NCBI RefSeq assembly: GCF_024713945.1
Contig: NC_134684.1
Coordinates: forward strand, 288,001-352,000
Source: Dermatophagoides farinae
Lineage: Eukaryota; Arthropoda; Arachnida; Sarcoptiformes; Pyroglyphidae
DNA length: 64,000 nt
Direction: 5' to 3'
Within the stretch, counting starts at the first letter, position 1. Every line of letters begins with the position of its first letter. This document shows, piece by piece, positions 48,834 to 53,549 of this stretch. Made by a program: the position numbers and the translations under genes. The notes beneath the pieces are model-generated. The model saw nothing but the letters and a program-made list of their open reading frames with translations. It was not told the DNA's origin and did no database searches.

Positions 48834-51800
48834 ATGCCTACATCATTACCATTACATTTTGCTGCAAACGGTACGTTTGTAGCTACTAGACCATCAGCTA
48901 CTGTTTATGATGTTGATGACCATAACCATCATCATCATCATCATCATCATAGACATCGACATCATCGTCATCATCATTGTGGCGATGGTGAAACAACCAA
49001 TGAAACAATCATGATAATCGCAACAAAAACTTTATCCTCATCATCAACTTCATCGTCATCATCATCATCATCGTCATCATCCTCATCAGTAGCATCATCT
49101 TCATCCTCATCATCAACATCATCATCATCGACGACGGCGACCTTTTCGGTCGCATCATCAAAAACGTTGACATCATCACCATCATCGACAACAAATTCAT
49201 CATCATGTTCACTATCATCAACATCAGCATCGACAACGACGACAATAAATGATGCCATCATTACTAGGGGCGAAGTGAAACAACAACAACAACAACAACA
49301 ACGACCAATTATTATTACAGGCCAAGTGAATAGTGAAATATCGTTAGCATGGAGAAATTTACGATATGAAGTATCACCACATTGGCCATGGTGGCCAACA
49401 CAACAGCAACAAAGAACTAAAGTGATATTACGACGTTTAAATGGCCATGTCCGCTATCAGACCATGACCGGTTTCATGGGACCAAGCGGTGCAGGTAAAA
49501 CTACATTGCTCAATTGTCTTAATGGTAATATTCAACGACTGTGTTCGGGTTCAGAAATTTATGTGAATCGCGTGGAACGAAAAATACCCGTATGTGGTTT
49601 TATTGAACAACATGTTCATGAAACAATAATCGGTAGACTAACTGTACGTGAAATTTTACGTTTTGCATTTCGATTCAAAAATTCCAATTGTTCCAATCAC
49701 CGTACCATGGATGAACATATCGATATGACAATAGCTGAATTAATGCTTGATTATCGTTGTCTTGAACGTCGTTTTGAACAATGTTCGGGTGGTGAACAAA
49801 AACGTATCGCTGTCGCACAAGAACTGATGTCTATTGATCGTAAACCACAATTTTTATTCATCGATGAACCAACTACCGGTTTGGATAGTCAAGCAGCATT
49901 AGAAGTGATGCGTTGTTTACGACAATTGACCGCTGTACATCGTATAACGGTTCTAGTATCAATACATTTGCCAAATGATGAAATATTGCGAATGTTTGAT
50001 CAGCTTTATATATTGGCAAAAGGTGGTGTAGCCATCTATGCTGGTGCACCGGAAAATCTTGGTGCAAATTTACGATTACAGTTAGGCATCGAAGTGGAAG
50101 GCAGTCGACCACCAGTAGAAGAGTATTTGAAACTAGCCTGTCATGGTATCGATGATTCGCGTGTAAGTCGACTGGCTGACCAAACATTGATTGAAGAACA
50201 TCAATATTTGACCACAAATCAACAGCAGCTTCGATTTCTAACGAATGGATCAGGAATGCCACGACGATTGAAATCATTTACGATTCGTGATTTTTTCCTA
50301 CAATTATATCGTATATTTTACATTGTATTTATTGTCGATTTTCGTATACTAGCCTATCAACTTTTGGTATATGCATGTTTCCTATTAACAATTGCAACGG
50401 TATTCGATCATCGTATGATACGGCCATCAATGTGTTATCCATTAGATGATCAGGATCGTGATCAGGATAATTCAACAACGGAAACAACAAGCACCGGTGT
50501 TGGTGGTACATGTCAACAACAATTGGATGATGAAGCATTCACCGATAGCTATATAGCATATCAAGCCTTTTGTAATATGTTTTTCGGTGTTATAATGCTG
50601 GGAGTTGGTGCTATACTTTTCACGCCAATGTTGAAAATGTTTCGTCATGAACATCGTAATCGTAAGTGTTTGCAAGAATCCTCATAATCTGTGATGCTCA
50701 AAACATTTGTTTTTTTTCCAAAGGCTGGTATTCAATGTCATCATTTTATTGGCCATTTATATTGGTTCGACTAGTCGAAGTGACAATGTTTTCATTAATC
50801 ATTACAATATTAATCTATTTCCCCACGGAACATCATCAGATCGATGGTTATCGTATCAATTGGTATCGATTTTGGCATTTTGCTTTTTTCATTTGGCTTT
50901 CTTGTGTCTATATGCAAACATTTGGACAGCTATTAAGTCTTATATTTTTGGATCAATTGGAAATATCTATCGTTATGGCTCAATTATGGTTCATACAATT
51001 GAGTCTAGTCAATGGTTATCTAATTAACTTAGCACATATGGACATACCGATATTGATGATTGTATCCAACATACTGGCTACGAAACCTATATCGAATGGA
51101 TTAATGTTTTCATTTTATGGTATTGACCGGTGTGATTCGGAAACCGAAATGTCAATTATGATGATGAAATTCAATATTGATGAACGACGTGTTTATACAC
51201 AGCTTACACAAGTATTCATCAATATGATCATTATACGTTCATTAACGTTCGTATTGATGTGTTTTCGATTTAGTTTCGGCAATAAAAGATGGCCAATTAT
51301 TGATTCCACGCGATCAATAAATTATTCGACGACAAATAATAATAACAATAACAATAATAAATTGCCAATGAACAGTGGACTGAGTCAAAACGAACCGATA
51401 CCAATTGATTATGGACAAAATCGTAATAAATTCAATATCAGTGATCAGAAAACAATTAAACTGTCTGAAATAAGTCGCATTAAACATGGCAAAGAAAGAC
51501 AATTTGAACAATTTTCACGAAACAAAATCATTGTTGGATGGCGATCACTTAATCTGTTTGCTTCTAGTTCGATCAAAGAAATACGTTCAGTACGACAAGA
51601 ATCACGGCTGATTCTACGCAATTTACATGGACAATTTCGTTTCGGTACCATGAACGCATTGATGGGCACATCAGGCGCCGGTAAAACATCATTACTACGT
51701 GTTCTAAATGGCTGTTGCAAGACAAAATTATCGGAAGAAAGTCGTATATATTTGAGCAGATTCACACCGATAAGGATATGTTTCATAACACAAGATGTAT

Positions 51801-53549
51801 CTGGACATCTATTGCCTGGATTGACGGCCAAACAAAGTTTGGTGTATGCATCACGATTAAAAAACAGCGACGAAGAACGTGAAGGCCAGATTGTGGAACA
51901 TGAAAAAATAGCCAAAACATTGTTGGATGAATTGGACATAAGCGATACGGAAGACACATTGGTACAGGATTGTTCAGGTGGTGAACGAAAACGACTGGCA
52001 TTAGCACTGGAATTAACTGCATTGCGTATGCCTAATCTAATCTGTATTGATGAACCAACCAGTGGTTTGGATTCAAATTCAGCATACATTGTCGTGGCTT
52101 GTTTACGTCGCCTGGTACATCGTCACAATCTAACCATTGTTGCTAGCATACATCAACCTAATACCGAAATATTAATGATGTTTGATCAATGTTATGTTCT
52201 AGCACGTGGTGGTGTATCCATTTATTCTGGACCACCGGATCAAATTAGTCAACAATTAAAAAAAGTACCCGAAATCAATATCGATGTGGATAAATCAAAA
52301 TTTCCAATCGAACAATTAATCAAATATTCATCATATGACCATAATGATTCTATTGTACAGAAATTAGTTAAATTAAATGAACAACAAATGATATCAAGTA
52401 TTGATAATTGTGATCTGGCAGAACAAACCCAATTGGTCATTGATGGTATTCAATTGAATCGGCCACAATTTTCATTAAGATCAGTATCGATCTTATGTCA
52501 ACGTTATATGGTCTACGTGAAAGGATATCTGTGGTTGTCGTTAATGATTTATATTGGTATCTATTTATTCTATGGATTGATACTTCGTGTATTTTTTAGC
52601 AATAAAATTGCCTACACAAGTGGCTGCATCGATATGGAAGACGATTTCAATTCAACTTGTAATCGTAACCAAGAACGGATTGAACGTGAAATGGATCTGG
52701 CTAGCAATTATCGTTATAATTTCTATTTAAATTCAATATTTCTATTTATTGTCGTGCTACAAACATCGTTGAATTTTTCAAAAGAATCCATATATTTTTT
52801 CAATGAACATCGTAATGGTAAGTGAATAAAAAAGAATTATAAATCAATTAATTAATCATCTCAATCATTTTATACAACAACAAACCAATACAGGTTGGTA
52901 TAGTACCGGAGCCTATTATGTCATGAAGTCTTTATACGATATAACGCCGATGATACCTGTGGTATTCATCTACATATGGATTGTAAACATTTATGAACCA
53001 ATACGACCAGGTATCTATTGGTGGCTAGTGTTATTGGTATTGATCTCAATCATTGCCATTCAAGGTATGGGCCATCTGTTTGCATTATTGACCAATGGCC
53101 AATTCACCATATTGACCATAACGAATATTGGAGTTTTCCTCTTTCTGGTAATATTATCAAATTTTTTCAATCCAATTGGCCGTATGCACTATGTATATCA
53201 ATTGATATCGAATCTATCAATTTGTCGATTTCTAAATGAAGCGACAATATTGCTACAATATGGTTTTGGTCGTTGTGGCCCAAAAGAGATACAAGCTACA
53301 TTGTATGTAATGATGCTACAACATGATGATCATTTCTATCATTGTCTGCAAATGTTATTATTCAATCTGTTATTCTATCGTGTATTGTCGTTAGCCGTGT
53401 TGATTGTTAAATCGAATCCAATGGAAAATCGACGGCAACGTGCCGAAAAGATTCGAAAATATCAGGAACATATGAGACCACTGAATTCAATCATACCCGG
53501 TCTGACGATATCGGATCAACAATTTTGTATTAAAAAAATTCAAATTTAA
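48834..53549 (+). CDS. full-size ABCG transporter (NBD-TMD-NBD-TMD), two White-type halves fused
   Basis: ATP-driven membrane transporter; substrate unknown (ABCG members move lipids, sterols, pigments precursors or xenobiotics). Exons 48834-50661, 50724-52817 and 52894-53549, phase-1 introns of 62 and 76 nt, 1525 aa. NBD1: Walker A GPSGAGKTT (216-224), signature CSGGEQKR (317), Walker B FLFIDEP (340-346), H-loop H378. NBD2: Walker A GTSGAGKTS (924-932), signature CSGGERKR (1026), Walker B LICIDEP (1048-1054), H1086. Each NBD is followed by a White-like TMD, each with the conserved EHRN.WYS turn. The two halves are joined by a hydrophilic Asn-rich linker around residue 800-840, inside the uninterrupted exon 2. 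The first 150 residues are low complexity (His, Ser, Gln tracts). Start is the first ATG; a later one is possible. Both ATPase sites look competent. Confidence 0.93.
48925..49290 (+). repeat. coding trinucleotide tracts (His, Ser, Gln) at ABCG N-terminus
   Basis: CAT-type repeats encode a His-rich stretch and, read in another frame, TCA/TCG repeats encode long Ser runs; a CAA run gives a Gln stretch. The tracts sit upstream of the first NBD and do not touch conserved transporter motifs. Confidence 0.85.

Follow-up and report, generated by a model that had tools for sequence, protein, structure and literature searches.

The stretch analysed here, 64,000 nucleotides of the genome of the dust mite Dermatophagoides farinae (the window; contig NC_134684.1, positions 288,001 to 352,000, which is C8:288001-352000 in an assembly of 62.4 Mb and 22 contigs), carries at 48834-53549 on the forward strand a gene for an ATP-binding cassette (ABC) transporter of subfamily G (ABCG) with the architecture NBD-TMD-NBD-TMD, in which two nucleotide-binding domains (NBD) and two transmembrane domains (TMD) are joined in one full-size chain. 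The ABCG proteins described from animals are half-transporters, each of which joins its partner once translated. The architecture of the gene, its open junction, the introns shared by its halves, phylogeny and sequence constraint suggest, at a probability of about 0.85, that it is a true full-size (NBD-TMD)2 ABCG and one of about 30 dust mite paralogs that would have arisen by duplication and fusion of an ABCG1-type half gene.

A preliminary description of this DNA, made from the letters alone, had proposed a model of three exons and 1525 aa with two NBD-TMD sets, and both the coordinates and the domain content were reproduced. The gene has two GT-AG introns, both of phase 1, and no internal stop codon. 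The Pfam family ABC_tran matches both exon 1 and exon 2. ABC2_membrane matches in two places as well, with 22.6 bits where exon 2 begins, short of the curated threshold (26.9), and with 28.5 bits in exon 3, which exceeds it. The ATP-site motifs were located in both NBDs, and six hydrophobic segments follow each NBD by our own reading of a hydropathy scan. The parts of the gene, in window coordinates, are as follows.

48834..50661 (+): exon 1, with the start codon, the leader, NBD1 and the initial part of TMD1
48834-49330: leader, Ser/His-rich and of low complexity, about 160 aa, upstream of NBD1
49335..50123 (+): NBD1, right edge approximate; PF00005 (ABC_tran), E=3e-16
49479-49505 (+): Walker A of NBD1
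49599-49613 (+): Q-loop of NBD1
49782-49805 (+): signature CSGGE of NBD1
49851-49871 (+): Walker B of NBD1
49959-49976 (+): H-loop of NBD1
50280..51286 (+): TMD1, edges approximate, split by intron 1
50662..50723 (+): intron 1, 62 nt, phase 1, at the TMD1 site EHRN^xWYS
50724..52817 (+): exon 2, with the remaining TMD1, the linker, NBD2 and the initial part of TMD2 in a single open frame
51308..51523 (+): linker between the halves, 72 codons, left edge approximate, with the ID[YF] element
51524..52315 (+): NBD2, right edge approximate; PF00005 (ABC_tran), E=9.2e-16
51665-51691 (+): Walker A of NBD2
51782-51796 (+): Q-loop of NBD2
51971-51994 (+): signature CSGGE of NBD2
52037-52057 (+): Walker B of NBD2
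52145-52162 (+): H-loop of NBD2
52505..53426 (+): TMD2, edges approximate, split by intron 2
52818..52893 (+): intron 2, 76 nt, phase 1, at the TMD2 site EHRN^GWYS
52894..53549 (+): exon 3, with the remaining TMD2 and the stop codon

The order of the domains, with the NBD before the TMD and ABC_tran followed by ABC2_membrane, is that of ABCG proteins, and in comparisons of the two NBDs with solved structures Cdr1/Pdr5, ABCG1, plant ABCGs and ABCG2/5/8 ranked above ABCA, ABCB, ABCE and bacterial chains. Human ABCG1 and the mite half gene L006, which match each other at 341 bits, share with the fused genes this domain order, sequence kinship in both NBD and TMD, and the YG-x-x-R motif after transmembrane segment 5. 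Half-transporters of the ABCG1/ABCG4 type differ in having one half per gene and in their need to dimerise, L006 differs in lacking the phase-1 intron at EHRN^GWYS, and the window gene, with two domains of each kind, departs from the one NBD and one TMD per chain that define metazoan half-size proteins. Of the White/ABCG1-like kinship suggested earlier, the ABCG1 part stands and the White part does not. An assignment to ABCH was also dropped, as the Walker B/D-loop motifs read DEPTTGLDS and DEPTSGLDS and not the DEPTVGVDP type, which we take to be an ABCH mark; the latter type is present in L004 and L005.

The window gene is indeed full-size and is not alone, being one member of a large family. 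A genome search with exon 2 assigned 30 C-half matches to the family at an identity of at least 41%, a lower bound since the searches scored the best candidates only, and each of the 30 pairs with an N-half match on the same strand in a search with exon 1. These loci are spread over six contigs and have common short introns. One tandem array holds six full-size copies that are mutually close in sequence, all on one strand (C3:5613000-5644000), and a second holds four copies, one of them inverted (C9:2.009-2.039 Mb). Within the family, N-half identity to the window gene falls to 41%, and to 33% for C3:815847.

Gene models were made with a spliced aligner, which reproduced both introns of the window gene exactly, and the detailed counts below refer to 21 such models and to a 22nd, L033b, made separately, with eight of the 30 loci not fetched whole. 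Nineteen of the 21 models are free of stop codons and frameshifts; L037, which is truncated, and L041 have one frameshift each, and the model kept for L034 avoids a frameshift only through a weak extra intron, the first model having needed one. A pseudogene reading of the family was rejected on this openness together with ratios of nonsynonymous to synonymous substitution (dN/dS) below 1. L033b (locus L033, C3:812300-816999, minus strand) has neither stop nor frameshift, is full-size with both phase-1 TMD introns, and adjoins an intact member. In the part fetched, which stops short of the NBD1 Walker A region, both halves have degenerate ATP-site motifs, and L033b is possibly a catalytically dead paralog.

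The preliminary description had argued for a single gene from the 2094 nt over which exon 2 stays open. This length, 698 codons, was confirmed and is far beyond chance, as no open run exceeded 188 codons when the region was simulated 2000 times under a first-order Markov model. The 72-codon junction alone was open in 1.2-2% of the simulations, so that at a single locus the open linker is suggestive and not decisive. The matter is settled by the rest of the family: the tail of TMD1 and NBD2 lie in one open frame at 30/30 loci, at 12 as a single match and at 18 as two matches in a frame of equal length (among the 12, one match begins at query residue 48 and that at C3:813473 at residue 155). Additionally, in L035 (C3:3472500-3478400, minus strand) a single exon of 1179 codons runs from the ATG across NBD1, TMD1 and NBD2 into TMD2, with the TMD1 intron absent, so that no guessed intron can have created the fusion. 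A frame of 1163 codons in L051 was considered as another intronless gene and rejected, as it contains a 60-nt intron without a stop. The shared open junction and the intron-free NBD1-TMD1-NBD2 of L035 thus indicate one gene and not two.

TMD1 and TMD2 of the window gene are each split at the homologous site, EHRN^xWYS, by an intron of phase 1. Of the 21 models, 18 have the TMD1 intron (L033, L035 and L037 lack it) and all 21 have the TMD2 intron; L033b has both. Amongst ten models of half-ABCG genes from the same genome (L001, L002, L003, L006, L007, L008, L009, L013, L019 and L025), the phase-1 intron at this TMD site was found in L025 only. This half-size gene (C5:5256445-5259828, in the region L025/L052, C5:5256445-5263000, minus strand) resembles the family in its intron and in grouping with the N- and C-halves in the TMD tree (96.3/95), and differs from it in being a single half with degenerate ATP-site motifs, namely Walker A, signature and H-loop. 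No second half was found within about 3 kb upstream. L025 may be an unfused sister of the family or a gene that lost its C-half.

Phylogeny was examined in maximum-likelihood trees of the NBD (56 rows) and the TMD (52 rows), the TMD supports being taken from the unrooted tree. The comparison rows included the ordinary half-ABCGs of the genome, human ABCG1, the plant half-size AtABCG25 and both halves of Pdr5; plant full-size ABCGs were left out. The truncated L037 was omitted from the TMD tree, the duplicate loci L011 and L023 were dropped, and ten loci that had been modelled but were ABCH-like, partial or poor (L004, L005, L010, L014, L015, L018, L020, L022, L026 and L030) were left out of both trees; L012, L016 and L024 had no models, and L033b was modelled after the trees were made. 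In the NBD tree the C-halves form one clade (100/100), the N-halves another (99.9/100), and the family with L025 is separated from the rest at 99.9/100. The TMD tree gave 99.8/100 for the C-halves, 99.9/100 for the N-halves, 92.7/98 for both together and 96.3/95 on addition of L025. The family and L025 thus stand apart from the ordinary half-ABCGs, human ABCG1, the plant half-ABCG and both Pdr5 halves. The approximately unbiased (AU) test rejected a grouping of the C-halves (p=0.0046) or of the N-halves (p=0.0033) with other half genes, and allowed the N- and C-halves to group without L025 (p=0.445) and the family to lie inside the ABCG1-type group (p=0.246). The shared intron and the shared clade point to an origin of both halves from one half gene, and on the same grounds a fusion of unrelated half genes was rejected.

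The motifs of the ATP sites are conserved throughout the 21 models. Both Walker motifs are retained in N- and C-halves alike. The signature reads CSGG in all except one C-half (CSDG in L033), and L033 is also the one model without a Q-loop glutamine, which its N-half lacks. Every half in which the H-loop histidine can be read retains it, L037 being truncated there. Since the catalytic motifs are kept in both NBDs, both ATP sites should hydrolyse ATP. Identity between the two halves is about 35%, and a steady difference between them is the glutamine of the HQP motif, missing from the N-half in 20 of 20 readable members and kept in the C-half in 21 of 21. The linker measures 46-76 residues, with the ID[YF] element in 16 of 21 models by our count. 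In eight of nine pairs, dN/dS values from a Nei-Gojobori script were 0.18-0.37 for the N-half, 0-0.54 for the linker and 0.16-0.30 for the C-half.

Several observations weigh against the reading of the family as fused ABCG1-type genes under constraint. Four codons upstream of the shared intron site, the half gene L008 is interrupted by an intron of phase 0, and the placement of L025 differs between trees, as it goes weakly with the N-halves in the NBD tree (77/94) and falls outside the N- and C-halves in the TMD tree. The Shimodaira-Hasegawa (SH) test left a joint clade with Pdr5 standing (p=0.131), and the alternative trees for both topology tests came from fast constrained searches. Whole-sequence phmmer scores placed the fungal Cdr1 first for both halves, because the scores of its two domains add up. 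In the ninth pair, L039/L041, dN/dS was 0.26 for the N-half, 0.41 for the linker and 0.68 for the C-half, the last value being taken after the frameshift of L041. Finally, an AlphaFold2 model of L035, built from 15 alignment rows, was poor (mean predicted local distance difference test score, pLDDT, 53.9; predicted template modelling score, pTM, 0.41), and a Foldseek search with it returned full-size Pdr5 first at a template modelling (TM) score of 0.21, the order being Pdr5 and Cdr1 (1016-1170 columns, TM 0.19-0.25) and then ABCG1. A structure prediction of the linked dimer had been proposed as a check of the preliminary description; run on L035, it lends no support to the pairing of the halves, and due to its low confidence no conclusion on domain pairing is drawn from it.

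Amongst other explanations, that of two adjacent half-transporter genes wrongly merged in the gene model is barely credible. The chance openness of the linker and an in-frame methionine inside it would fit such a merger, but the junction is open at every family locus, L035 crosses it without an intron, the first half of the window gene has no stop codon of its own, and the linker has a recurrent element and dN/dS of 0-0.54 in the nine pairs. Very improbable, too, is a fungal or plant-like gene of the pleiotropic drug resistance (PDR) type, acquired through contamination or horizontal transfer. The domain order is the same, fungal Pdr5 and Cdr1 likewise hold (NBD-TMD)2 in one chain of similar length (1511 aa in Pdr5), and the whole-sequence rank of Cdr1 and the SH result speak for it. 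Per domain, however, phmmer scored human ABCG1 above Cdr1 (109 vs 95 bits for NBD1 and 105 vs 81 bits for NBD2), the AU test rejected orthology with the Pdr5 halves (p=0.002; SH p=0.030) as well as a joint clade (p=0.017), and the N- and C-halves have an intron and a clade in common. PDR_CDR and PDR_assoc had no match in the window gene or the genome, though neither family was matched in any control genome either. The degenerate ATP site of Pdr5, with RPGSGC (Walker A) and CWDN (Walker B) in NBD1 and LNVEQ (signature) in NBD2, is not seen in the mite proteins, whose NBDs are canonical; plant full-size ABCGs, absent from the trees, have (NBD-TMD)2 with two canonical ATP sites, as does the mite family. 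The independent tandem fusion put forward in the preliminary description, in place of fungal contamination, is thus supported by the trees, in which N-halves and C-halves are each a clade, by the AU tests, and by a family of about 30 genes on six contigs with common short introns.

That full-size ABCGs are an ancient animal or chelicerate trait lost elsewhere, and not a fusion in the mite lineage, is unlikely, although the large divergence within the family would suit an old origin and the genome comparison was confined to this one animal. Against it stand L025, half-size and yet with the diagnostic intron, and the literature. The available part of the spider mite paper PMC3724490 (2013) has metazoan ABCGs reported only as half-size and gives T. 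urticae 23 ABCGs with the reverse domain order. Half-size ABCGs are described in the available parts of surveys of Daphnia (PMC2680897), Tigriopus (PMC4247197) and Anopheles sinensis (PMC6471920), and an arthropod-wide study (PMC8290562), likewise available in part, gives a median of 3.5 ABCG genes for arachnids in a sample that may or may not include dust mites. Amongst the matches listed in the open-licence literature, as far as their accessible text goes, no full-size animal ABCG was reported except in one sentence of PMC4247197, which credits an oyster and a shrimp with full-size ABCG transporters. The titles it cites, on fungal PDR transporters, oyster ABC multidrug transporters and a shrimp ABC transporter, offer no obvious support, and the sentence is taken for a slip. 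The accessible portions of PMC7738191, PMC5467014, PMC13389597, PMC6902594, PMC12364353 and PMC9415403 do not mention full-size ABCGs, and no ABC terms were found in PMC12105342. More doubtful still is a role in which the fused chain has other half-ABCGs as its main partners, or in which one ATP site serves for regulation. The glutamine consistently missing from the N-half HQP motif and the degenerate NBD motifs of L033b and L025 would agree with it, but where they can be read, both NBDs retain the two Walker motifs and the H-loop histidine, and CSGG is missing from one C-half only.

Under the preferred reading, an in-frame fusion within the ABCG1-type lineage, the starting point would have been a half-transporter gene that already had the phase-1 intron in its TMD. 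A tandem duplication of this gene would have been followed by a single in-frame joining of the copies via the linker, and the fused gene would have multiplied, partly in tandem, to about 30 genes. The chain would then close on itself and pair its two halves as the ABCG dimer, with NBD1 and NBD2 sandwiching two ATP molecules and TMD1 and TMD2 forming one translocation path. As the halves are about one-third identical and have separate patterns of conservation, the protein may act as an obligate heterodimer in one chain. Its direction would be export and, by its kinship with other ABCGs, its substrate a lipid or xenobiotic.

Downstream of the gene, the window holds frames matching an N-terminal asparagine amidohydrolase (PF14736; 54177-55037, forward strand) and an AMP-binding enzyme (PF00501; 55713-57374, forward strand). 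The mite-allergen domain Blo-t-5 marks a locus elsewhere in the genome, whose protein matches Der f 21 in the PDB without a difference over residues 20-131 (112 residues), a few residues before them differing, which identifies the animal as D. farinae or a species very close to it; a Der p 21 chain was absent among the seven PDB matches to this locus.

Altogether, an animal lineage has probably re-invented the full-size ABCG pump familiar from plants and fungi. As a mite counterpart of the PDR family, one ABCG1-type fusion would have radiated to about 30 genes, outnumbering the half-ABCGs found in this genome. If so, the PDR plan would have arisen a second time, and nature would have run an independent experiment on tying an ABCG pair into one chain. 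Surveys that assume half-size ABCGs could miscount such fused genes, and the family would supply candidates for the export of lipids or xenobiotics in a mite of medical importance.

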